IMG/VR virus record: IMGVR_UViG_3300030098_000370
Location: 1-23,224 of that record
Length of the DNA: 23,224 nucleotides
Reading direction: 5' to 3' (one strand)
DNA from: a virus
Shown here: in pieces, positions 7,396-21,892 of the stretch
Layout: every line of letters starts with the position of its first letter
How positions within the stretch are numbered: the stretch's first letter is position 1
The notes under the pieces: model-generated
Databases searched by the model: none
What the model saw: only the letters and a program-made list of their open reading frames with translations
What the model was told of the DNA's origin: nothing
Made by a program: the position numbers and the translations under genes

Positions 7396-7872
7396 ATGTC
7401 TTTAGTAAAATTCAAAGATTATATTAAACCTTACCATAGAAAAAGTAAACTTGAAGATGTTGTAGAATTATATCCTAGACTCAGAGAAGCGGATCAACGT
7501 GAAGTAGAAACCTTAGGAAGCTCCCCTGAGAAAGCCTTAGTGTTTGCTTATCTTAATAGCTCTACTTGTAGGACTATTATTAATAGCATGGGTCATCCTG
7601 TAGCTATGTTTGGAGTAGTTCCATTAGATAAATATGCAGGTTCAGTATGGATGTTAGGAAGTAATGGTTTACCTAAAATTAAGCAAGCCTTTTTAAAAGA
7701 GTGCCGACAGGAAGTAATTAAGCTAAATGAAAAACATCCTTATCTCTGCAATATAATTGATAGTAGAAATACACTTCATGTTAAATGGATTAGGTGGTGT
7801 GGTTTTAAAATCATTGGAGAGACCATAATTAACAATGTTAAATTTTATGAATTCTGTAGGGTAGGTACTTAA
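7396..7872 (+). CDS. gp13: Internal virion protein A, T7 gp13-like, GNAT-like fold
   Basis: A 158-residue protein in the T7 gene 13 position (T7 gp13 is 138 aa). The layout is that of a GNAT acyltransferase-like fold: a strand pair 'HPVAMFGVVPLD', a loop 'GSVWMLGSNGLPKIKQAFLKECRQEVIKL' (about 78-112) where acetyl-CoA would lie in true enzymes, then 'LHVKWIRWCGFKIIGE' (about 127-142). T7 gp13 is needed for proper assembly of the internal core and is not known to be an active enzyme. The canonical (R/Q)xxGxG/A acetyl-CoA motif is not evident here, so activity is doubtful. GGAG at 7387-7390 lies before the ATG. Confidence 0.85.
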   Translation: MSLVKFKDYIKPYHRKSKLEDVVELYPRLREADQREVETLGSSPEKALVFAYLNSSTCRTIINSMGHPVAMFGVVPLDKYAGSVWMLGSNGLPKIKQAFLKECRQEVIKLNEKHPYLCNIIDSRNTLHVKWIRWCGFKIIGETIINNVKFYEFCRVGT

Positions 7873-8462
7873 TGCCAATATTTCAAACATTATATACTGG
7901 TAGGTTTTTAGCAGAGACGTTTGGGGCTGATGTTCAGTATAAAAGGGATACTTTTGCTGCTGATACAAGGTTCTATGATGCTCAAAAACAAGTAGCCATA
8001 AACAATCAATTAGCCTACAATTCATTTTTACACATCAATCAAGAACAAGCATTAGATTTAAAACGATTAGCCTTTGATAAAGCTGATATTAGGCGAATGT
8101 CTATGGAAGAAGTAGCAAAACAAAGGGCTATAAATGCAAGTATGGGTGGAGATAGAGGCAGAGTTGGTCAGAGTTCTGATGCAGTAATAGATAATATAAG
8201 ACGTAGGGCTTACTTAGCTTTAGCTCGGAAAGACTTAAATAGACAGATAAGAATGGCAAGCTTTGACCAACGAAGGAAGAATGTAACTCTAAGTACGACT
8301 AGTAAGAATAATATAGCTTTTTCCAACTTACAAATTAGTCCAAGTAAAACTGGAGCTATCCTTAAAGTGTTGGGTTCTGGTATACAGAACAATATTGATG
8401 CTAAGGTCGGTACTTTGAGTACCTCAGGTAAAGCCACACAAACTACAATTACTACAACATAA
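7872..8462 (+). CDS. gp14: Internal virion protein B, T7 gp14-like
   Basis: In T7, gp14 is ejected first and forms the outer-membrane pore of the DNA translocation channel. This product has exactly the T7 length (196 aa) and the expected position between gp13 and gp15. It is Ala/Gln/Arg-rich and mostly helical with a central 'FLHINQEQALDLKRLAFDKADIRRMSMEEVAKQRAINASMGGDRGRVGQSSDAV' type region (about 53-105), in which the 'G.....G.SG/SSDAV' turn is typical of podovirus gp14-like proteins. The C-terminus is Ser/Thr-rich. The start overlaps the preceding stop by one base (TAATG). Confidence 0.85.
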   Translation: MPIFQTLYTGRFLAETFGADVQYKRDTFAADTRFYDAQKQVAINNQLAYNSFLHINQEQALDLKRLAFDKADIRRMSMEEVAKQRAINASMGGDRGRVGQSSDAVIDNIRRRAYLALARKDLNRQIRMASFDQRRKNVTLSTTSKNNIAFSNLQISPSKTGAILKVLGSGIQNNIDAKVGTLSTSGKATQTTITTT

Positions 8463-8480: not shown

Positions 8481-11267
8481 ATGTCACAGCAAGACCAATT
8501 CAGGCTTGATCCTGTTGAAACAAAAATCACAGCTCCTATTTCTGATGTTTCAGTTCAACAAACTCCTACTAATGATACTGGGTTACAAGCCGGTGTAACT
8601 GCCCTTTCTCAAGCTATGGGAAGTTTAGCTGATTTTGCTAAAAAAAGACGAATACAAGAGGACACCCTTATAGCTGAGGAAGCTGCAGCTAGAGAAGAAG
8701 TAATGCCGGGAGGACTACTACCAGTAGCTCAATCAGCTTATCACAATGTTGTTGATATAAATACTAAAGCTGAGGTATTAGCTAGTGTCAAGCTATGGAC
8801 TGAGGGTGATGATTACTTAGGAGTTATTAAGAGTGATGCCACTTCTAGAGAAAAATCAGATGTTTTAAAGAACAAGTTTGCTTCCTTCAAAGCTGAGGGA
8901 ATGAATTCTATTAGAAATCCTGCCTTACTACAGTCATTTAATCTTGAGATGAATGAGTTACAAGCAGCTCAAGAAAAGATCATCTATGAGATAGAAAAGA
9001 AAGATATGACTGTAGAAACTATTCAAGGGATAAAGAATGTCATAACAGATGCTAAGAATTTTGCTGAGATAACAGGTGCAACGGAACTAGCTGACATATT
9101 TAATAAAAGATGGATTAATGCTATGGGTCTAGATGTTAAAAAGACTCTGCCGTGGATTACTAATAAAGAAGCACGGCTCTTAGCTATGCAGACTTTAATG
9201 CAAGATGAAGATATTCTATTGAGACCTGATATTATCCATGATATTCTAGGAGAAGAATACTCTAAAGGGTTTACTTATTCTGCCTTACTCATAGGTACTG
9301 GTGATGATGCTGATGCTTTCAGAAAGATGCACTCAGAATATCTATCAGACTCCAAGGCTTTATTCACTAAACTATCTACAGAAGACAAGGCTTCTTATGA
9401 TAAATTGGTAGAAGACTCAAGAGATGCGGCTTACCAGATATTCATGGAGAATGGGGCAACTATGGAAGCTGCCACAATGGTTAGGGAGTTCCTGACTAAT
9501 AGTGGAGCTTTTGATGACAAGAAGAAACTTGAGTCAGAGATGAAATCCTTTGAGTCATACTTCAATAGTGCTGAGAGATATGGTAGGTTTTCCAAGCAAT
9601 ACCAAGAAGTAGTAGACTTGGTTATCAAGAATGAGATCACAACTAAACATCAGCTTAATAGTCTTCTTCTAGCTAAACAGATTAATACTGACTTATGGTC
9701 AGAGGTCGGAACTCTACTAACAGAAGAAGGTGAGCAAAGAAAGAGTTTAATCAAGAGCTATAAGGAAAGTACATCTACTATGCGTTCCCAGATGGTTTCC
9801 TCTATTAAAATGGCTCTCAGTAACAATAAGAATCTCTCAGCTATTCTTGAGGTCATGGATAAGAGAAAGCTGGGGAATGCTGAGATGTTGAAACTCATAG
9901 CTGACAGCGGTTTAGATGGTGGTGAGTTTTCTACCATGATGAATGGGCTACAGGTAATGCTCAATGACATGGATAAACTAGCTACTGAATGGGGAACTAG
10001 AGATGCAGCTACAGATTCCCCTGTTAGAACCGATGAGTTCATGCAAGTCTTCAAGGAACAAGGACATCAGCTATTACAAGCAGCTAGAAAGATATCTGAG
10101 TTAACAGCACAAGAAGATGAACAACTAAGAATATCCATTGAAAATAAAGCTCAGAATAAAACTGCTTCTAAACTAGGGTTTCAATTTGGGGGTACTGATA
10201 AAAAACTCCCTTGGATGGAACAAGTAAAACAAAAGAATAAAGAAGTTAATGAAGCAATAAAAAAGAGAATAGTAGATCAAGCCAAGGTTAACAAACAGGA
10301 CAACCAGAAGGTAGTAGAGAAAGTTAATCAACTGAAAAAAGATGGTATGTTTGATGGAATACTTGGATATCTAATGCCGGGAACCTTCAGTCCTACTCAG
10401 GAAGGTATGAGAGATAAACTGGAAGCTGGAACTACAAATGAAACTCAGGATCCTAAACCAAAGGATAAAAAAGATTCCAGTTGGTTTGATAAACTCGTAG
10501 GAGAACAACAAACAGGAACATATAAATCGGGTAAGAACTACACCTATGATAAAAAGAAAAGTGAGGATGAAGAAGAATACCTAAAGAGACTATTAAATCC
10601 TTCAAGTACACCTATTACAGTTCCAAAGTATCAAGAAAAAGTACCTCAAGCAGAACTGGATAAGAATGTGGATTACCAAAGGTGGAAGAATAGACAGCAA
10701 CAACTAAAAGATAACGTAGATAGAATAGGATTTCGTCATCAGTTGTTCAATGAGTTAGGTAAACTTACTCTTGTTAGCATGAATACAGGCAAAGATATCA
10801 AGGATAATCCCGGTAATGTAGAAGAAGGTCAGGGGTTTGGTGGTGAGACTGGTGAACTCTATGCAAAAGATAGAGTAAAACAAGGGAGGAAACCTTTTGT
10901 AGTCTTTGATACTCCTCAGATGGGCTTGAGGGCTATGTTCATGGATATACGCACAAAGATTAAAAGTCTTGATGGTAACTTGTTAAAGATGATTACCAAG
11001 TATGCACCTCCAGAAGACAATAATGATACCAAGGCTTACTATGAACACGTTAAGAAAAATGTTGGAGGTAAAGAAAAGGTAACTGAGGATGACTTGATGG
11101 ACATAGTAAGGACTATGATTAAACATGAAAATAAACCAGAGGTTGCTGACTACTACCTAAGTGATCCTAAAATTCTTAAAGAGGCCTTTGAGTTATCTAA
11201 GAAACAGCTTCCTAGCGGAACTACCTATAAAGAAGCTATAAAACTAATAAAAGGGCTAGAGGTTTAA
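8481..11267 (+). CDS. gp15: Internal virion protein C, T7 gp15-like, with a C-terminal P5-type murein-hydrolase-like domain
   Basis: In T7, gp15 is part of the internal core and, once ejected, of the periplasmic tunnel. This protein (928 aa) is longer than T7 gp15 (747 aa). Residues 1-650 are long helical repeats as in gp15. Residues about 640-735 are a Lys/Asp/Glu-rich, low-complexity linker. Residues about 755-905 form an added domain with 'NPGN' (776-779), 'PFVVFDTPQMGLRAM' (ending near 819) and 'YAPPEDNNDTKAYY' (841-854). This N-P-G-N / G-x-RA / APP-N-T-x-Y pattern is that of phage P5-type virion proteins linked to cell-wall degradation. Hydrolase activity is inferred. The ribosome site GGAG (8472-8475) is 5 nt before the ATG. 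Confidence 0.85.
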   Translation: MSQQDQFRLDPVETKITAPISDVSVQQTPTNDTGLQAGVTALSQAMGSLADFAKKRRIQEDTLIAEEAAAREEVMPGGLLPVAQSAYHNVVDINTKAEVLASVKLWTEGDDYLGVIKSDATSREKSDVLKNKFASFKAEGMNSIRNPALLQSFNLEMNELQAAQEKIIYEIEKKDMTVETIQGIKNVITDAKNFAEITGATELADIFNKRWINAMGLDVKKTLPWITNKEARLLAMQTLMQDEDILLRPDIIHDILGEEYSKGFTYSALLIGTGDDADAFRKMHSEYLSDSKALFTKLSTEDKASYDKLVEDSRDAAYQIFMENGATMEAATMVREFLTNSGAFDDKKKLESEMKSFESYFNSAERYGRFSKQYQEVVDLVIKNEITTKHQLNSLLLAKQINTDLWSEVGTLLTEEGEQRKSLIKSYKESTSTMRSQMVSSIKMALSNNKNLSAILEVMDKRKLGNAEMLKLIADSGLDGGEFSTMMNGLQVMLNDMDKLATEWGTRDAATDSPVRTDEFMQVFKEQGHQLLQAARKISELTAQEDEQLRISIENKAQNKTASKLGFQFGGTDKKLPWMEQVKQKNKEVNEAIKKRIVDQAKVNKQDNQKVVEKVNQLKKDGMFDGILGYLMPGTFSPTQEGMRDKLEAGTTNETQDPKPKDKKDSSWFDKLVGEQQTGTYKSGKNYTYDKKKSEDEEEYLKRLLNPSSTPITVPKYQEKVPQAELDKNVDYQRWKNRQQQLKDNVDRIGFRHQLFNELGKLTLVSMNTGKDIKDNPGNVEEGQGFGGETGELYAKDRVKQGRKPFVVFDTPQMGLRAMFMDIRTKIKSLDGNLLKMITKYAPPEDNNDTKAYYEHVKKNVGGKEKVTEDDLMDIVRTMIKHENKPEVADYYLSDPKILKEAFELSKKQLPSGTTYKEAIKLIKGLEV

Positions 11268-14200
11268 ATGGTTAAAAGAACTGAGCCAACACAAGAAGAT
11301 ATATTTGCAGATGACTATATAGAGCATGATTCTAGTGCAGTCTCCAATTGGGCTAATCTAAGGAAACGTAGAGATGAGTATGAGGGTTCTTCAGCTCACA
11401 TAAATGATCTACAGGATATAGCACATGATAACCAATTTGCTCCTATAGCTGACCAAGAGATCAGCAAGATTGCCAATAATGATGATAGTGGTTTCTTTGG
11501 TACTGTTATGAACATGGGTAAACAACTTGGTATAGGTGCTGCCAAAGGTGTTGAAGAAACATTGGAATTTGCAGGAGTAGTTGAGGATAATGCTTTTCAT
11601 CTGCCTGATCCTACAACTACTGCCGAGAGTCTTGTTCAAGGTATCGGGCAGTTCCTCCCATTGTTTATCCCAAGTAATATGGCTATCTCTGCAGCTCTTA
11701 GAGCTTCTACTTTCTTTGGTAAAACAGAACAACTCACTAAAGCTGGACAAATGGTTTCAGCTATGGGAGCTGGAGCTATCTCTGATTTTGCTTCATTTGA
11801 TCCTAAAGATCCTAATGTAGCTAACTTCCTGTTAACTTCAGGTGCAATAGCCAAGGACAGTATGGCTGGAGCAGCTCTTAAAGAGTGGTTAGCTCAAGAC
11901 GATAGTGACTCTAGGTTAACTGCAAGAACTAAAAATGCTACTTCAGGTCTTATTGCTGGAGCTATAGTTGACCAAGTATTTAGAGCTGCTGGTGGAGCTA
12001 TCAGGGGATTCAGAGGTAAGAATGGAGAGGTCATTCCAGATGATAAGGTTAAACTGGATGACATGGATGAAGGTAATATCTATGCAGATGATGACTATGG
12101 AGTAGCACCTACAGAAAATCCTCTATGGGATGTAGATGATGCTCCTAAACAACAGTATACCTCAGAGAAGACTTCCATTAACCAAAGTAAACCTACAGCT
12201 TTAGTTAACTCTAAGGGTATCAAGTGGGAAAAAGATACAGTTAACCTAGATATAGGAGGAGGTAAACACCCTAAAACTACAGAATCTCTAGCTAGAAAGG
12301 GTGTTACCAATCATATTTATGATCCCTTTAATAGAACCAGAAGTCAGAACAAGGCTGCTATAAGATCTGCTGGTGATGGACAGTCTGATACAGTAACTAT
12401 CAGTAATACTTTAAATGTTATAAAGGAGCCTGAGGTAAGAACAAGGATTCTAAGACAAGCTGAGAATGCTCTTAAAGAGGACGGTAAGGTATATATCCTT
12501 ATCCATGAGGGAGATAAGTCTGCTTTAGGTAAAGAAACACCAAAAGGATGGCAGAATAATAGGAAAGCTAATACTTACCTAGAAGAAGTACAGGAAATAT
12601 TTCCTAATGCTACTCGTAAAGGAAATGTTATTACAGCTTCCAAAGAGGGAAGTAAGAGTTTATTTGATGCTGTAAGACCTGTAGTGGGTCATCAGTTAGA
12701 TACACTACAAAAGATGAAGACTACTGATCCTGAGTACATTAAGAAACTCCAAGATCAACTCCCATCAAGACAAGCAGCCATACTGGACGAAGCTGATAAA
12801 TTAGAGAGAGATTACCTCACTCCATTTGAAAGAGAAACTCCAGAGAGACAACAACAAGTATACGACATTATTGAAAGATGGGCTAAAGGTGAGGCCGTAC
12901 AGGACTCTGATATGAGTATCATTGAGTCTATGAACTTACTGAAGATCGAGGATGAGGGTGATATCCCCAATCTCTTACAGTTTCTCTCAAGAGAAATGGA
13001 TATAGCAAAGCTCACTAAGAAGACTATCAAGGATGGTGACTTTGATACCATGTCAGGGTTACAGGAGATATACAACTTAGACAAAAGATCTGCCGTAAAG
13101 ATCATACAGAAACACAAGGGTAACGTCAGGGAAGCCATAAGATTTGTAGGAGCTGCAAGAGCATTAGCTACAGGATTTATGAAGAAAGCTGACGAATCTT
13201 TGGATCTCTTTGTTAAAACTGGTGATGAAGTTCATTGGGATGAGTTCCAGAAAAACTCAGGGTTGGGCTATGATATGCTAGTAGCTGGTGGTGAGCTAAG
13301 TAAAGCCTCCTCAGACTTACTAAGAGCACATAAGCAGACAGTTAACCGAATGAGTAATCTGGAAGAAGTCAAGTTCTTTGCCAGAGAAAACATACTTAAA
13401 GAACCCTTTGAAGTCCGAAAGACTAAAGCTGGTAGATTCAAGAAGCTGAAGAAACAGGATGAGATGGAGATAGAGGGTAGATTTACGGGGGGTCAGAAAC
13501 GTAAGATCAAAATAGACAAGAAGAAAAAGAAAGACTTGGTACTCTCAGAGCAAAAGAGACTCAGAAAGAAGTTTGAGAGACTCTCTAAAGAGATCAGGAA
13601 GCTCAGAGAACAAAATGAAAAGGATGTAGCAGACCTCTTAAAGAAGGACTTGGAGTTCCAAGAGTTAGGAATCAAGAAACTTCAGGATGAAAAGAAAGCT
13701 TTATTAAAGCAAATAAGAGCCAAGAAGCGAAAAGGTGTACCTAAGTCAGCTAAAGAAGCCGAGAAACAACGCATAGAAACTCTCAATAAACAGATAACAG
13801 AACTTACCTTGATGAAAGCTAAACTAATCAAGGAAGGTATCGCTCCTGAGAGAAAAGCCAAGATAATCAAAAGTGACCATGAGAAGAAACTAATAGCTGA
13901 CAGGGAGAAACTCAAGGAAGAATTAGGTCTCATAGAGAAGAAAGGGTTAACTGACGAAGAAATCAGGGAATTAGCTATAGAACAAGCTAGAAGGGAAGAA
14001 ATAGTTGACATAGAGAATGCTAATATAATGCAACTCAAGGCTAGACTGTCGGCTATGAGGCTGAGTGGTAAAGCTAGAACCAGAGATGCTGGACTTGAAC
14101 TGTATATTAATGGTCTATTATCTTCCATTAAAACCTCAGAGGTTAACTTCTTAGGTAATCTGACAGCTATGTTTACTAGTGTTATAGACCGAATGTATGC

Positions 14201-16079
14201 AGGGGCTAAATCTGGTGGTGAAATACAGTTTAAAGAAGCTACAGAACTCATGTGGGGGTATCTACAGGAAATCCCTGAGTTCTTTAGTATTGTCCATAAG
14301 GCATGGAAGACTCCACTGGATAACAATGTTAAACAGGACTTCATAAGACCTGAGAATAGAGCTATCAGTAAAGAAGCATTCAGACAAGGAGGAAGTTTAG
14401 GTAAAGCTATAGACTATGTAGGTTCTGTAGTTAATTTTCCCGGTAAACTTCTGCTTACTGCCGATGAAGTATTTAAAACTTTCAACTATAGAGCTGAAGT
14501 TAAAGCTTTAGCTTACCGTAAAGCTGTAAATGAGTTGGGAAGTGCTGGAGCATCCTCAGGAGAAAAACATCTACTCAGAGAACGAATAGATGACATTATG
14601 AATAACATAGCTAAACATGAAGATATTACTGATGCTGCCAGAGAATTTGCAGCCAAGAATACTTATACCAATAAACTTGCTGACCATGTAGAAGTTGATC
14701 CTATTACAGGTAAGGAAAAGGTAGTCCAAGGATTAGGCAATAGACTCAAAGGTATACTTGAGAAAGATCCTACAGGTATTGTAAGGGTATTTATACCCTT
14801 CTTTCAGACTCCGGCTAACCTCCTCAATTTTGCATGGGAACGAACACCTTGGCTACGAAGGTGGAATAGAACACTACAGGATGAATTGGCAGGTAAGATG
14901 GGGCAAGGAGCCAAGGAACTGGCAGAAGCTAGAGTTGCTACTTCTCGTATTATGTGGGGAGGTATGTTCGCTGCAGCTTGGTCTGGTAATTTTACTGGTG
15001 CTCCTCCACTTGATCCTAACCTAAGGAAAACCTTAGAAGCTGATATGGGTGGCCCACATTGGTATAGCTATCATGGTGGTATACAAGATGGTTGGAAGAA
15101 GTATGATAGATTCGATCCTCTTGGTGTAATCATGGCTGCTAATGCAAACTTAGCTATTATGATGAAAGCTTCTGTTAATCTACATAAACAGTATCAACAA
15201 GGTGACCCCTCAGATGAAATCTTTGAGAAGGCTAAAGAAGTATTAGAAGCAGGAATCATGGGTACTGTCAAACTACTAACAGATAGACACTATCTTCAAG
15301 GGTTTGCAGAACTAATAGACATTATGACAGGCGATCACAAGGGGTTATCTAAGTTAAGACCCTTTGGTAAACGTCTAGTAGGTGCTATTGATCCTAGAAC
15401 TAGCTTCTATTCTTCTTTTAGACGTAATCTAACTAGAGGTATTGAACCAGAAAAACTTGAGAAACTCCAACATACTGACATGGAAAGTATGGGAGACTTT
15501 GCTAAAGAGATAGGCATTATCTTTGAAGAAGCATTGAGGGATGTAACCCCCGGTTATGGAACAAAAGTAGCAGCTAAAAACTTAGTAGGTGAGCCTGTAT
15601 TGTTTCCGGGTGGTAATGAAGAAATAGATAGGACACCTTTTCAGATGATGGGAGATATAGGTAAGGCTCTATTTGATCCTAACCCTCCTGTAACTGGTTC
15701 TAAGAGTCCTCTAATCCGTAAATTAGCAGAGTTAGAGTCTACTCAAGGTCAACCATCTACAGTTAACAAGATAAATGGTATGACTATGACTGATGAAGAA
15801 AAGGCATTCTTTGTTGATAGATGGACTGAGTGGAACAAGAAGCTGGAGAAACTTGTAGTCTCTAAGAGTTTCACCCAGTTACCTCTAGGTACTCAACGGT
15901 TTATCCTTGAGTTGGCTATAAGTGGTAATAAGGAAAGAGCCAAGAAACAAACCTTGATAGCTTATGAGAGACTACTTCATGGTACATTTGAATTTAAGAT
16001 TAATGAGTTAAGGAAACGAGTTTCTGAGGATATGCCTACAGGATTTAATCAATTTAACCTAATGCAAAGAGAACAATAA
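11268..16079 (+). CDS. gp16: Internal virion protein D, T7 gp16-like, with embedded SAM-methyltransferase-like domain
   Basis: The largest ejection protein (1603 aa against 1318 in T7), expected to enter the cell ahead of the genome. Residues ~75-245 are hydrophobic helices with 'AGAISDFASFDPKDP' (~168-182). Residues ~315-460 look like a class I methyltransferase: 'NLDIGGGKHP' (motif I, ~325-334), 'YDPFNRT' (351-357), 'DTVTISNTLNVI' (374-385) and 'GKVYILIHEGD', then 'GWQNN'. Residues ~750-935 are a long Lys/Glu/Arg coiled coil. After ~940 comes the 'SEVNFLGNLTAMF' helical region, then 'YDRFDPLGV', shared with large phage ejection proteins. I find no N-terminal lytic transglycosylase motif such as T7 gp16 has. 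It starts at TAAATG after the gp15-like gene. Confidence 0.88.
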   Translation: MVKRTEPTQEDIFADDYIEHDSSAVSNWANLRKRRDEYEGSSAHINDLQDIAHDNQFAPIADQEISKIANNDDSGFFGTVMNMGKQLGIGAAKGVEETLEFAGVVEDNAFHLPDPTTTAESLVQGIGQFLPLFIPSNMAISAALRASTFFGKTEQLTKAGQMVSAMGAGAISDFASFDPKDPNVANFLLTSGAIAKDSMAGAALKEWLAQDDSDSRLTARTKNATSGLIAGAIVDQVFRAAGGAIRGFRGKNGEVIPDDKVKLDDMDEGNIYADDDYGVAPTENPLWDVDDAPKQQYTSEKTSINQSKPTALVNSKGIKWEKDTVNLDIGGGKHPKTTESLARKGVTNHIYDPFNRTRSQNKAAIRSAGDGQSDTVTISNTLNVIKEPEVRTRILRQAENALKEDGKVYILIHEGDKSALGKETPKGWQNNRKANTYLEEVQEIFPNATRKGNVITASKEGSKSLFDAVRPVVGHQLDTLQKMKTTDPEYIKKLQDQLPSRQAAILDEADKLERDYLTPFERETPERQQQVYDIIERWAKGEAVQDSDMSIIESMNLLKIEDEGDIPNLLQFLSREMDIAKLTKKTIKDGDFDTMSGLQEIYNLDKRSAVKIIQKHKGNVREAIRFVGAARALATGFMKKADESLDLFVKTGDEVHWDEFQKNSGLGYDMLVAGGELSKASSDLLRAHKQTVNRMSNLEEVKFFARENILKEPFEVRKTKAGRFKKLKKQDEMEIEGRFTGGQKRKIKIDKKKKKDLVLSEQKRLRKKFERLSKEIRKLREQNEKDVADLLKKDLEFQELGIKKLQDEKKALLKQIRAKKRKGVPKSAKEAEKQRIETLNKQITELTLMKAKLIKEGIAPERKAKIIKSDHEKKLIADREKLKEELGLIEKKGLTDEEIRELAIEQARREEIVDIENANIMQLKARLSAMRLSGKARTRDAGLELYINGLLSSIKTSEVNFLGNLTAMFTSVIDRMYAGAKSGGEIQFKEATELMWGYLQEIPEFFSIVHKAWKTPLDNNVKQDFIRPENRAISKEAFRQGGSLGKAIDYVGSVVNFPGKLLLTADEVFKTFNYRAEVKALAYRKAVNELGSAGASSGEKHLLRERIDDIMNNIAKHEDITDAAREFAAKNTYTNKLADHVEVDPITGKEKVVQGLGNRLKGILEKDPTGIVRVFIPFFQTPANLLNFAWERTPWLRRWNRTLQDELAGKMGQGAKELAEARVATSRIMWGGMFAAAWSGNFTGAPPLDPNLRKTLEADMGGPHWYSYHGGIQDGWKKYDRFDPLGVIMAANANLAIMMKASVNLHKQYQQGDPSDEIFEKAKEVLEAGIMGTVKLLTDRHYLQGFAELIDIMTGDHKGLSKLRPFGKRLVGAIDPRTSFYSSFRRNLTRGIEPEKLEKLQHTDMESMGDFAKEIGIIFEEALRDVTPGYGTKVAAKNLVGEPVLFPGGNEEIDRTPFQMMGDIGKALFDPNPPVTGSKSPLIRKLAELESTQGQPSTVNKINGMTMTDEEKAFFVDRWTEWNKKLEKLVVSKSFTQLPLGTQRFILELAISGNKERAKKQTLIAYERLLHGTFEFKINELRKRVSEDMPTGFNQFNLMQREQ

Positions 16080-16080
16080 T

Positions 16081-18348
16081 ATGGCTAGAGCAAAAGATGT
16101 ATACACAGCAGATGGTAGTACACAGTCATTTGCTGTAACCTTTCCTTTTATAAGTAGAAGTCATGTAACTGTTACTGTTAACGGAGCTTCTGCTACTTTT
16201 ACTTGGGTAAATGACGGACAGATTACTATTAGTTCACCTACAGTAGTCAATACAGATAAGGTAATTATTCAAAGGGCTTCAAGTGATACTGTCAGATTAG
16301 TTGATTATGTAGATGGGTCTAACCTTACTGAGTCAGATTTAGACTTAGATTCTAAACAAGCCTTCTATATGTCTCAAGAAGCTCTAGATGAGCGTGACAA
16401 TCATCTAGCATTAGACGTATCAGGAGCTGATAGTTGGGATGCACAGTCTAAAAAGATCACAGACCTTATTACTCCTACTAATGCTAATGATGCTTCTAAT
16501 AAATCTTATGTAGACGCACAGATTGACATAAGTACAACCAATGCTGATAATGCTGCTGCCTCTGCTACCGCTTCTGCTACCAGTGCAACTGCTTCTGCTG
16601 CGAGTGCTACCGCTGCCTCTACCAGTGAAATTAATGCTGCTACTAGTTATGATAATTTTGATGATCGGTATTTAGGTCAGAAGTCAAGTAATCCAAGCGT
16701 TAATAATGATGGAGACTCACTAATTACAGGAGCTTTATATTTTAATACGACAAATGATGTAATGATGGTCTATTCTGGATCAGCTTGGCAGAGAACCACT
16801 CCTACTAGTTCAGATCAAACAGCAATTAATACCGTAAATTCAAACTCAACTAACATTAATACCGTTGCTGGGATTAGTAGTAACGTGACAAGCGTTGCTG
16901 GGATAAGTGGGAACGTAACATCGGTGGCTGGTAACGCTACGAATATAAATACGGTTGCTGGAAATAATGCAAACATAACCACCGTTGCTGGAAAGGCAAC
17001 AGAGGTTGGGCGTTTAGGTACTGCTGATGCTGTATCTGATATGAATACTTTAGGCACAGCCGATTGTGTTTCAGATATGAACACGCTTGGCACAAGTGCA
17101 AACGTAACAGCCATGTCAAATTGTAGTGGATCAATCGCTAATATTAATACGGTGGCTGGGATTCAAGCTAATGTAACAACCGTTGCTGGGATTAGTAGTA
17201 ATGTCACAACCGTTGCTGGAAACGCAACTAACATGAATACAGTTGCTGGAATAAGTTCTAACGTCACAAGTGTTGCTGGAATAGCCAGTGATGTTACTGC
17301 CGTTGCCAACGATGCTACAGACATCGGAAATGTTTCTTCAGGTATTGGGAATGTAAATATTGTAGGAGATGATTTATCAGGGCAATTTTCTCACATTGAT
17401 GATGGAGGATCAATTACAGATGCAGTCACAAGTTCCTCTGGAACATCGAATGTGCAGACGGTAGCAACCAATATTGCCAGTGTGAATACGCTAGGTACTG
17501 CTGATGCTGTGTCTGATATGGCGATTTTAGGTGATGCAGACATAGTTGCTGATATGGCAGTTTTAGGTGCGACAGGTGTTGCTGATGATATGGAAACTGT
17601 AGCTAATAATATTAGTAATGTAACAAGTGTTGCTGGAAATGCAACTAATATAAATGCGGTAGCGGCAGATGCCACGGACATAGGAAATGTTTCTTCTGGA
17701 ATTGGAAACGTCAACCTCGTTGGTAATGACTTGTCAGGTCAATTTTCTCATATTGATGATGCAGGGTCAATCACATCGGCTGTTACAAGTTCCTCTGGTA
17801 CATCAAACGTTCAGACAGTAGCAACTAATATTGCCAATGTGAATCTCACTGGTGGATCAATTGCTAACGTCAACAATACTGGTGGATCAATTGCTAATGT
17901 AAATACGGTGGCAGGCTCAATCGCTGACGTAAATCGTTATGCCGAAGAATATAAGATTGCGAGTTCTGCTCCATCCTCTCCTTCAGAGGGCGATCTTTGG
18001 TACGACAGCACCACAAATGTTCTTAAATGTCACAATGGTACAACTTTTGTAGCCGTTACTTCAGCAACAGCAGGGATCACCGATGTAGTGGATGACAGTT
18101 CTCCGCAACTTGGTGGCAACCTTGATATGAATGGCAATAATGTAGGTGGAGTTACCCCCACAGAAATGGGTTACGTTTCTGGCGTGACTTCTGCTATTCA
18201 GACTCAAATTAATAACATTGATACCGATTTATCCAACGATAGTTCACCTCAACTAGCTGCTGCATTGGATTGTCAAAACAACAACATTACAAATACAGGC
18301 ACTATTAGCGGTGCTAATTTACAAATTGATTTTGGAGGTCTGACTTAA
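16081..18348 (+). CDS. gp17: Tail fibre protein with T7 gp17-type N-terminal domain
   Basis: A trimeric fibre bound to the tail by its N-terminus. Residues ~1-110 match the T7 fibre attachment domain ('YTADGSTQSFAVTFPFISRSHV' near the start, 'AFYMSQEALDERDNH' about 98-112). Residues ~150-190 are Ala/Ser/Thr-rich, a likely coiled stalk. Residues ~193-245 and ~635-665 are two related 'G.LYFNTTNDVMMVYSGSAWQ' type modules. Residues 258-620 are built of ten-residue NxxTVAGxxx units plus a duplicated 59-residue block. The C-terminus ends abruptly (QIDFGGLT) without a chaperone or receptor-binding knob, and the next gene, 1 nt away, supplies such parts. The two may form proximal and distal parts of one fibre. 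Confidence 0.93.
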   Translation: MARAKDVYTADGSTQSFAVTFPFISRSHVTVTVNGASATFTWVNDGQITISSPTVVNTDKVIIQRASSDTVRLVDYVDGSNLTESDLDLDSKQAFYMSQEALDERDNHLALDVSGADSWDAQSKKITDLITPTNANDASNKSYVDAQIDISTTNADNAAASATASATSATASAASATAASTSEINAATSYDNFDDRYLGQKSSNPSVNNDGDSLITGALYFNTTNDVMMVYSGSAWQRTTPTSSDQTAINTVNSNSTNINTVAGISSNVTSVAGISGNVTSVAGNATNINTVAGNNANITTVAGKATEVGRLGTADAVSDMNTLGTADCVSDMNTLGTSANVTAMSNCSGSIANINTVAGIQANVTTVAGISSNVTTVAGNATNMNTVAGISSNVTSVAGIASDVTAVANDATDIGNVSSGIGNVNIVGDDLSGQFSHIDDGGSITDAVTSSSGTSNVQTVATNIASVNTLGTADAVSDMAILGDADIVADMAVLGATGVADDMETVANNISNVTSVAGNATNINAVAADATDIGNVSSGIGNVNLVGNDLSGQFSHIDDAGSITSAVTSSSGTSNVQTVATNIANVNLTGGSIANVNNTGGSIANVNTVAGSIADVNRYAEEYKIASSAPSSPSEGDLWYDSTTNVLKCHNGTTFVAVTSATAGITDVVDDSSPQLGGNLDMNGNNVGGVTPTEMGYVSGVTSAIQTQINNIDTDLSNDSSPQLAAALDCQNNNITNTGTISGANLQIDFGGLT
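16852..17319 (+). repeat. Two arrays of degenerate 30-bp (ten-residue) repeats in the tail fibre gene
   Basis: Array one (16852-17001) has five units and array two (17140-17319) six units of 30 bp, all in frame, encoding N-(I/V)-(N/T)-(T/S)-V-A-G-x-x-x. The protein motif is better conserved than the DNA: each unit differs at synonymous positions, though GTTGCTGG is almost always kept. A further partial pair lies near 17617-17676. The regular period suggests a repeated beta or triple-helical shaft unit whose number could change by slippage or recombination. Confidence 0.85.
17311..17487 (+). repeat. Copy 1 of a duplicated 177-bp block in the tail fibre gene
   Basis: Encodes 59 residues beginning DATDIGNVSSGIGNVN. 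It matches 17668-17844 at 54 of 59 residues, with equal length and no gaps, but with many synonymous differences. It contains the 'DLSGQFSHIDD' core and ends in 'TVATNIASVN'. Confidence 0.9.
17668..17844 (+). repeat. Copy 2 of the duplicated 177-bp block in the tail fibre gene
   Basis: The second copy of the block at 17311-17487, 357 bp downstream and in the same frame. The five residue changes are I/L, D/N, G/A, D/S and S/N. The spacing implies duplication of a larger 357-bp unit whose remaining part has since diverged. Confidence 0.9.
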
Positions 18349-21559: not shown

Positions 21560-21892
21560 ATGGCAACAATAATAACTGATGAATGTATCAATTGTGCGGT
21601 CTGTGAACCTGAATGTCCTAATGAGGCAATAGACGATGGATCAGGAGAGGACTTAGATTATTACTATATTGATCCCACACTATGTACTGAATGTGTAGGA
21701 TTTCATGGTGAAGAAGCGTGTCAAGAAGTGTGTCCTGTAGATTGTTGTATTCCAGATGAAAATATAGTTGAGACAGAAGAAGAACTATTAGCAAGAGCTA
21801 TTAGATTACATCCAGATCAAGAGTTTCCTATATTAGCAGAACTTACTGAAAAAACATCTATATTTCGTAATCCTAATAGAAAAAACGCATAA
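21560..21892 (+). CDS. yfhL-like: 2[4Fe-4S] ferredoxin, YfhL/Alvin type
   Basis: 110 residues. The N-terminal half carries two cluster motifs: C9-x2-C12-x2-C15-x3-C19-P and C42-x2-C45-x8-C54-x3-C58-P. The eight-residue spacing in the second motif and the 'ITDECINCAVCEPECPNEAI' and 'TLCTECVG' sequences mark the Allochromatium-type ferredoxins that include E. coli YfhL. The C-terminal extension 'VETEEELLARAIRLHP' also matches the YfhL family tail, so all parts needed to bind clusters are present. Low-potential electron transfer in the cytoplasm is expected and the partner is unknown. Codon use is as AT-rich as its neighbours (every Cys is TGT), so the gene looks well adapted to the phage. It starts 2 nt after the zinc-ribbon gene. 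Confidence 0.93.
   Translation: MATIITDECINCAVCEPECPNEAIDDGSGEDLDYYYIDPTLCTECVGFHGEEACQEVCPVDCCIPDENIVETEEELLARAIRLHPDQEFPILAELTEKTSIFRNPNRKNA

Follow-up and report, generated by a model that had tools for sequence, protein, structure and literature searches.

A predicted class I SAM-methyltransferase domain inserted into the gp16-like ejection protein of a marine T7-like podovirus

Genome context

The window (the whole stretch of viral DNA analysed here, 23,224 nt) comes from a marine T7-like podovirus. Its open reading frames and their profile matches follow the T7 gene order of portal, scaffold, capsid, tail tubes, gp14, gp15, gp16, tail fibre and terminase, and a gp13-like protein is present too. 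The features at the ejection-protein locus are:

7872–8462 (+): gp14-like internal virion protein (phrog_805, E 7e-4, and gene order)
8481–11267 (+): gp15-like ejection protein (phrog_873 'endolysin' at aa 775–911, E 5.1e-11)
11268–16079 (+): ORF of the gp16-like internal virion (ejection) protein, 1603 aa, carrier of the predicted methyltransferase
11613–12005 (+): N-terminal helical gp16 module (~aa 116–246), directly before the insert; aligns with gp16 of CRP-227, ProddE and S28-C10 and with L051–L054
12051–12677 (+): inserted segment (~aa 262–470), acidic linker plus methyltransferase, delimited by alignment with L051, L053, L052 and L054 and by the linkers of the AlphaFold2 model
12147–12653 (+): predicted class I SAM-methyltransferase domain (aa 294–462), from PF13489, the family HMM, the AlphaFold2 model and Foldseek
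14130–15707 (+): C-terminal gp16 core (~aa 955–1480), common to podoviral internal virion proteins

An earlier sequence-only reading of this DNA had called the 11268–16079 product gp16-like, and both profile match and gene order bear this out. The model phrog_6651 'internal virion protein' matches aa 1054–1396 (E 4.8e-25), and tblastn aligns the protein with genes annotated as internal virion protein D in pelagiphages, in roseophages and in the Desulfovibrio phage ProddE. Judged by profile, tblastn and gene order, the ORF is thus of the gp16 class (internal virion protein D), and it resembles T7 gp16 in gene position and in a C-terminal core with homology to that of the podoviral internal virion proteins D. 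A hydropathy scan for membrane segments was uninformative, its two 19-mers (aa 126 and aa 1285) being marginal. The methyltransferase, in turn, sets the protein apart from T7 gp16, in which we know of no such domain. A further difference concerns wall hydrolysis: T7 gp16 has an N-terminal transglycosylase (PMC8954989), whereas in the window a peptidoglycan-hydrolase-like region lies at the C-terminus of the gp15-like protein (10803–11213, +; phrog_873 'endolysin'), a pattern that looks like domain swapping between ejection proteins.

A methyltransferase domain in the gp16-like protein

The Pfam family PF13489 (Methyltransf_23) was matched by the whole gp16-like protein with E 4.4e-6 and by the domain alone with E 2.1e-7; against a cut-off of 27 bits the scores were 27.0 (that is, at the cut-off) and 31.3 bits, respectively. 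A family HMM from which the window protein and its near twin had been left out gave 197.4 bits on aa 294–459, and the best score among 500 shuffled versions of the gp16-like protein was 5.1 bits. Searching the PDB with the single domain (phmmer) returned weak unrelated matches only; the family profile reached an arsenite methyltransferase at 7e-4. PADLOC found no match in the window protein, and its MADS mad2 model matched two homologues of the domain weakly (0.005 and 0.04).

The near twin, contig L001 from another metagenome, has the same arrangement, with the domain inside a gp16-like protein. Identity to the window is 87% in the best protein segment, 79% in the domain and 94% in the core, and the domain shows a dN/dS of 0.14 against L001, indicating purifying selection. 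With 197 bits from a profile built without the window against 5 for shuffles, a confidently predicted fold (below) and an independent contig arranged alike, the probability left for chance similarity or an assembly artefact is negligible. An assembly chimera, specifically, is ruled out by the like arrangement in the independent metagenome.

AlphaFold2, given 31 sequences as input, modelled the domain with pLDDT 90 and pTM 0.86 and a topology of beta1-A-beta2-B-beta4-D-beta5-hairpin-E-beta6-beta7. The model has a Rossmann-like alpha/beta fold, with the D/ExGxG SAM loop after beta-1 and, at the end of beta-2, the acidic residue typical of class I methyltransferases (D352). When the model was compared with the PDB by Foldseek, 128 chains were found at E<=0.001; among the 50 listed, nearly all were SAM-methyltransferases (Trm9, METTL6, RsmC, UbiG) at probability 1.00, with TM-scores to these solved structures of just ~0.4–0.57. 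Viral structure models of the same domain family gave TM-scores of 0.83–0.90.

The canonical seven-stranded sheet is incomplete, as the model lacks beta-3 (motif III) and alpha-C. From D352, the acid of beta-2, it is just 22 residues to D374, where the beta-4 segment starts, and the stretch from motif II to beta-4 is ~20 residues shorter than in UbiG. Beta-3 is common though not universal among class I methyltransferases, where beta-3 and alpha-C usually touch the SAM adenine. The domain is thus modelled as a compact class I variant without beta-3. It shares motif order and fold with the UbiG/Trm9-like family PF13489, whose cut-off it passes, and differs from it in an additional conserved N-terminal motif and in the Q429/Y437 region.

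Conservation was measured over 80 non-redundant family members. The main motifs are:

12150–12182 (+): N-terminal motif QQYTSEKTSIN; Q295, S299, T302 and S303 kept in at least 95% of the 80 members
12243–12266 (+): motif I, NLDIGGGK (aa 326–333), the putative SAM-binding loop; D328, G330 and G332 invariant
12318–12335 (+): motif II, YDPFNR (aa 351–356); D352 invariant, N355 and R356 at least 93%
12387–12422 (+): beta-4 signature DTVTISNTLNVI (aa 374–385); L382 and N383 invariant, N380 99%
12504–12515 (+): HEGD (aa 413–416), after beta-5; G415 88%
12543–12566 (+): KGWQNNRK, past the hairpin behind beta-5; Q429 99%

D328, G330, G332, D352, L382 and N383 are invariant in all 80 members, while Q295, N361, N380, G406 and Q429 reach 99%. 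In the model, KGWQNNRK probably forms the rim of the active site. Pfam, the family HMM and AlphaFold2 agree with the sequence-only reading, all of whose quoted motifs are present and whose expectation of a Rossmann fold is matched by the model and its Foldseek neighbours. The span it had given (12210–12647) does contain the domain, but is slightly short and cuts off the N-terminal motif (Q295...S299..T302-S303). Profiles and model together indicate that the gp16-like protein holds a genuine class I SAM-methyltransferase domain at about aa 294–462.

A catalytically dead domain that gp16 keeps for structure or for binding (to sense SAM, or to bind DNA or a partner) could explain the missing beta-3/alpha-C and two of the three positions at which the copy in the window does not follow the family consensus (V381 to T and G419 to A; the third is P310 to T). 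We consider it unlikely, as the residues of motif I, motif II and beta-4 are invariant across the 80 members, stand-alone genes included, the domain is under purifying selection, and gp16 relatives manage without it. Activity is instead to be expected, since the family as a whole retains motifs I and II and the beta-4 signature.

When aa 1–560 were modelled together, the model was poor overall (mean pLDDT 61.5), with the domain a block of ~80–94 between linkers at 240–284 and ~465–485 that were mostly below 50. Because a confident block stands between low-pLDDT linkers, the methyltransferase looks like an autonomous tethered unit.

Insertion and recurrence of the domain

The closest gp16 relatives, L051 and L053, are 51% and 50% identical to the whole protein. 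Together with L052 and L054 they align collinearly on both sides and lack the segment at ~aa 262–470. Aligned in this way, the methyltransferase is a clean insertion between the N-terminal helical module and the remaining gp16-like protein. The domain was absent from 80 of 80 gp16 relatives collected by the C-terminal core, four of which are incomplete or cut at a contig end. As close relatives mostly do without it, we regard the domain as an accessory insert, not a feature of gp16.

A scan with the domain itself found more than 200 relatives, of which 80 were retrieved for analysis; with ORFs from earlier scans, 116 (some of them duplicates) were analysed for association with gp16. Gp16-like sequence and methyltransferase share one ORF in L011, L013, L025, L169 and L184/L188, and the L169 contig also has T7-like tail-tube and terminase genes. 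In L190, L196 and L198 the methyltransferase ORF overlaps the start of the gp16 ORF, and in L153, a large polyvalent protein with the methyltransferase, the gp16 match is weaker. By sequence comparison, then, about five further lineages have a gp16-like protein to which a member of this family is fused, and in one more lineage the member occupies a neighbouring ORF. The survey of related podoviruses suggested by the sequence-only reading thus has a mixed outcome, the domain occurring in some relatives while close ones mostly lack it. On a tree of the gp16 core, domain-bearing proteins are scattered among those without the domain; at least seven changes in its presence are needed (gains and losses being undistinguished), five of them forced by well-supported branches, on a tree in which L025 and L153 sit on long branches.

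Most other relatives belong to very long proteins (ORFs of 1182 aa at the median), in keeping with the likeness to polyvalent-type domains already suspected from the sequence. In the large proteins scanned, the domain is accompanied by ART-PolyVal, LPD38, LPD1, RadC, Zeta toxin and MuF-like domains. Stand-alone methyltransferase genes occur in phages, in Vibrionaceae megaplasmids and in a Rhodocytophaga. The window protein itself is an ejection protein with one catalytic domain; its homologues L010, L013, L022 and L039 look polyvalent by Pfam.

One of these, L013 (5331–8507, +), has a gp16 N-module, a Zeta toxin (Pfam, 4.9e-17), the partner domain described below and the methyltransferase in the same slot, with the core in the next ORF; it resembles a multi-cargo ejection protein. 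In L055 (4239–9734, +), a gp16-like protein of 1832 aa, aa 32–79 match ART-PolyVal (ADP-ribosyltransferase) slightly below the curated cut-off, and in the other long gp16 proteins scanned with Pfam for additional cargo there was no confident match. The gp16 equivalent of Methylophilales phage MEP301 (L047 4927–8026, +) consists of two overlapping ORFs, and similar splits are seen in L013, L025 and L198.

Relationship to a phosphorothioation-associated family

The only NCBIfam model matched repeatedly was TIGR04096 (dnd_rel_methyl, 'DNA phosphorothioation-associated putative methyltransferase'). It matched 14 of 31 family members at E<=0.05 (best 4.6e-6), all far under its cut-off, and gave the window protein 11.2 bits where 150 along the whole model are required. 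Going by these scores, TIGR04096, a family that the sequence-only reading does not name, is the nearest curated one, and the window domain appears related to it at the level of the superfamily only.

Stand-alone methyltransferases often have close by an uncharacterised gene for a ~150-aa partner protein with the motifs VGK..Y.H, PDFD and HHKW:

L016 10645–11112: partner gene
L151 8433–8954: partner gene
L206 8200–8757: partner gene
L015 6762–7334: partner gene

In a 485-kb phage the partner protein matches positions 320–476 of TIGR04096, its C-terminal half, with E 4.1e-24. In Vibrio, partner domain and methyltransferase form one fused protein; polyvalent proteins, the gp16-like L013 among them, also contain the partner, as do L010 and L034. 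In three database proteins that bear the TIGR04096 name (e.g. WP_011316602, Trichormus plasmid A), the partner precedes the methyltransferase. The Trichormus protein has a further copy of the partner towards its C-terminus, as does, weakly, an Azospirillum protein. One of the three lies beside dndB and a PAPS-reductase-family gene, the other two beside FtsK-type genes.

Phage family and TIGR04096 proteins share, partly as read by eye, KTxI, DxGxG, DP, VLNVIE..ER and FQ..Y, so that both can be written as a compact methyltransferase KTxI ... DxGxG ... DP ... AD.V....VLNVIE...ER ... FQ ... Y, and QQYTSEKTSIN in the window is the counterpart of the KTxI motif. Some phage-family members are moreover paired with the same ~150-aa partner, as neighbouring gene, fusion or part of a polyvalent protein. 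Full TIGR04096 proteins differ in being ~650–750 aa long, with the partner N-terminal of the methyltransferase, and in lying in dnd/FtsK clusters. The window protein does not reach the family cut-off, no dnd genes are seen around it, and it gave no match to the partner domain (TIGR04096 320–476), so that the methyltransferase half stands alone; the enzyme might in consequence work differently or be incomplete.

In L045 (5380–7440, +), from the Rhodocytophaga, the partner, a stand-alone methyltransferase and a GGGQDS gene form a three-gene run; read by eye, the GGGQDS motif is PP-loop-like and recalls PAPS-reductase/DndC proteins. Full-length TIGR04096 proteins were looked for in 148 genomes from the order to which L045 belongs, where all matches were partial; plasmid records did contain full-length ones. 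The open-access literature yielded no tested function for the phosphorothioation-associated methyltransferase.

Possible role of the domain

In T7, gp16 leaves the virion before the genome does and forms a path across the envelope; the N-terminal part of the protein acts in the periplasm, the C-terminal part on the side of the cytoplasm (PMC8954989). We think it likely that the gp16-like protein of the window carries, in its linker, an intact and active methyltransferase as virion-delivered cargo for early counter-defence or take-over. The compact enzyme would have been acquired as a modular unit in a flexible linker behind the N-terminal helical module. Synthesised late, it would enter the virion within gp16 and be threaded out together with that protein when infection begins. 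It would then refold on the cytoplasmic side, where host SAM is usable, and methylate a host or phage target prior to phage gene expression. Packaging and ejection of the domain are probable given the gp16 identity of its carrier, and cytoplasmic action is most likely because a methyltransferase needs host SAM. A folded domain has to unfold for passage through the tail. In T7 the number of gp16 molecules that enter a cell is very small, so a weak enzyme would be limited in effect. Of the possible purposes, counter-defence or take-over seems the most likely from the company that the domain keeps, as the family accompanies polyvalent toxins and effectors as well as DNA-sulfur loci and so points to host-phage conflict.

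The sequence-only reading had proposed that such an enzyme might modify incoming DNA against restriction. A precedent exists in DarB of phage P1, a virion-carried polyvalent methyltransferase with such a proposed role, which resembles the window protein in being a methyltransferase within a multidomain phage protein (PMC5512222), and the nearest curated family sits in DNA-phosphorothioation clusters. DarB-type enzymes are defined by NPP(Y/F), LPD36 and an SWI2/SNF2 helicase partner (Iyer et al. 2017, PMC5512222). Pfam found neither an SF2 helicase nor LPD36 in the window protein or the scanned gp16-type homologues, and the family has SN[VT]LNVI where NPP(Y/F/W) is expected; on motifs and partners a DarB-type adenine methyltransferase is rejected. 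Classical DNA base methylation is unlikely more generally, since the family has neither NPP[YFW] (N6A/N4C) nor PC (C5) and the ~165-aa domain is without a target-recognition domain. The closest folds, moreover, are tRNA, rRNA and small-molecule enzymes (50 listed of 128 chains). These points weaken the anti-restriction proposal, and we hold a DarB-like base methyltransferase that marks incoming phage DNA to be improbable.

It is quite possible, if short of an even chance, that the enzyme serves take-over by modifying a host nucleotide, metabolite, RNA or protein (a signal nucleotide, tRNA, RNA polymerase or a defence factor), in the manner of injected ADP-ribosyltransferases. Trm9, METTL6, RsmC and small-molecule enzymes as Foldseek neighbours, ART-PolyVal and Zeta toxin among the domain partners, and the conserved Asn/Gln-rich positions N361, N380, N383 and Q429 are consistent with this, although neighbours within the class I methyltransferase fold do not predict substrates.

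We also put forward, as a rather doubtful proposal, that podoviral ejection proteins have a slot for cargo in which counter-defence enzymes have been captured time and again. The most often seen of these would be a virion-delivered relative of the phosphorothioation-locus methyltransferase, acting at DNA entry on DNA-sulfur or other backbone or nucleotide chemistry or on the defence machinery that goes with it. If true, this would be a counter-defence route so far undescribed for T7-like phages.

Virion-carried methyltransferases in polyvalent proteins are already known, DarB belonging to a different methyltransferase family; we found no description of a methyltransferase in a podoviral ejection protein in the open-access literature. 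The recognised functions of T7 gp16 are wall hydrolysis and DNA translocation, and do not include the carriage of effector enzymes. Virion-delivered enzymes act ahead of phage gene expression and can thereby meet defences that strike incoming DNA. A methyltransferase lodged at a gp16 linker in phages unrelated to one another, and akin to a component of DNA-phosphorothioation systems, also links two questions, the target of the Dnd-associated methyltransferase and the cargo range of ejection proteins, and a compact domain of ~165 aa suits purification and substrate screens.

Other observations

The tail fibres of the window (16081–18348) and L001 (4268–6091) have the N-terminus in common and differ in the number of NVTxVAGIxxN repeats. 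The distal gene set of L001 also differs from that of the window, suggesting turnover of the host-range region. Just upstream of the terminase, the window encodes an unusual 110-aa 2[4Fe-4S] ferredoxin (21560–21892, +; CINCAVCEPECP...CTECVG), which matches PDB 1blu at E 1.4e-22 and YfhL at 1.2e-17 and is possibly an auxiliary metabolic gene.
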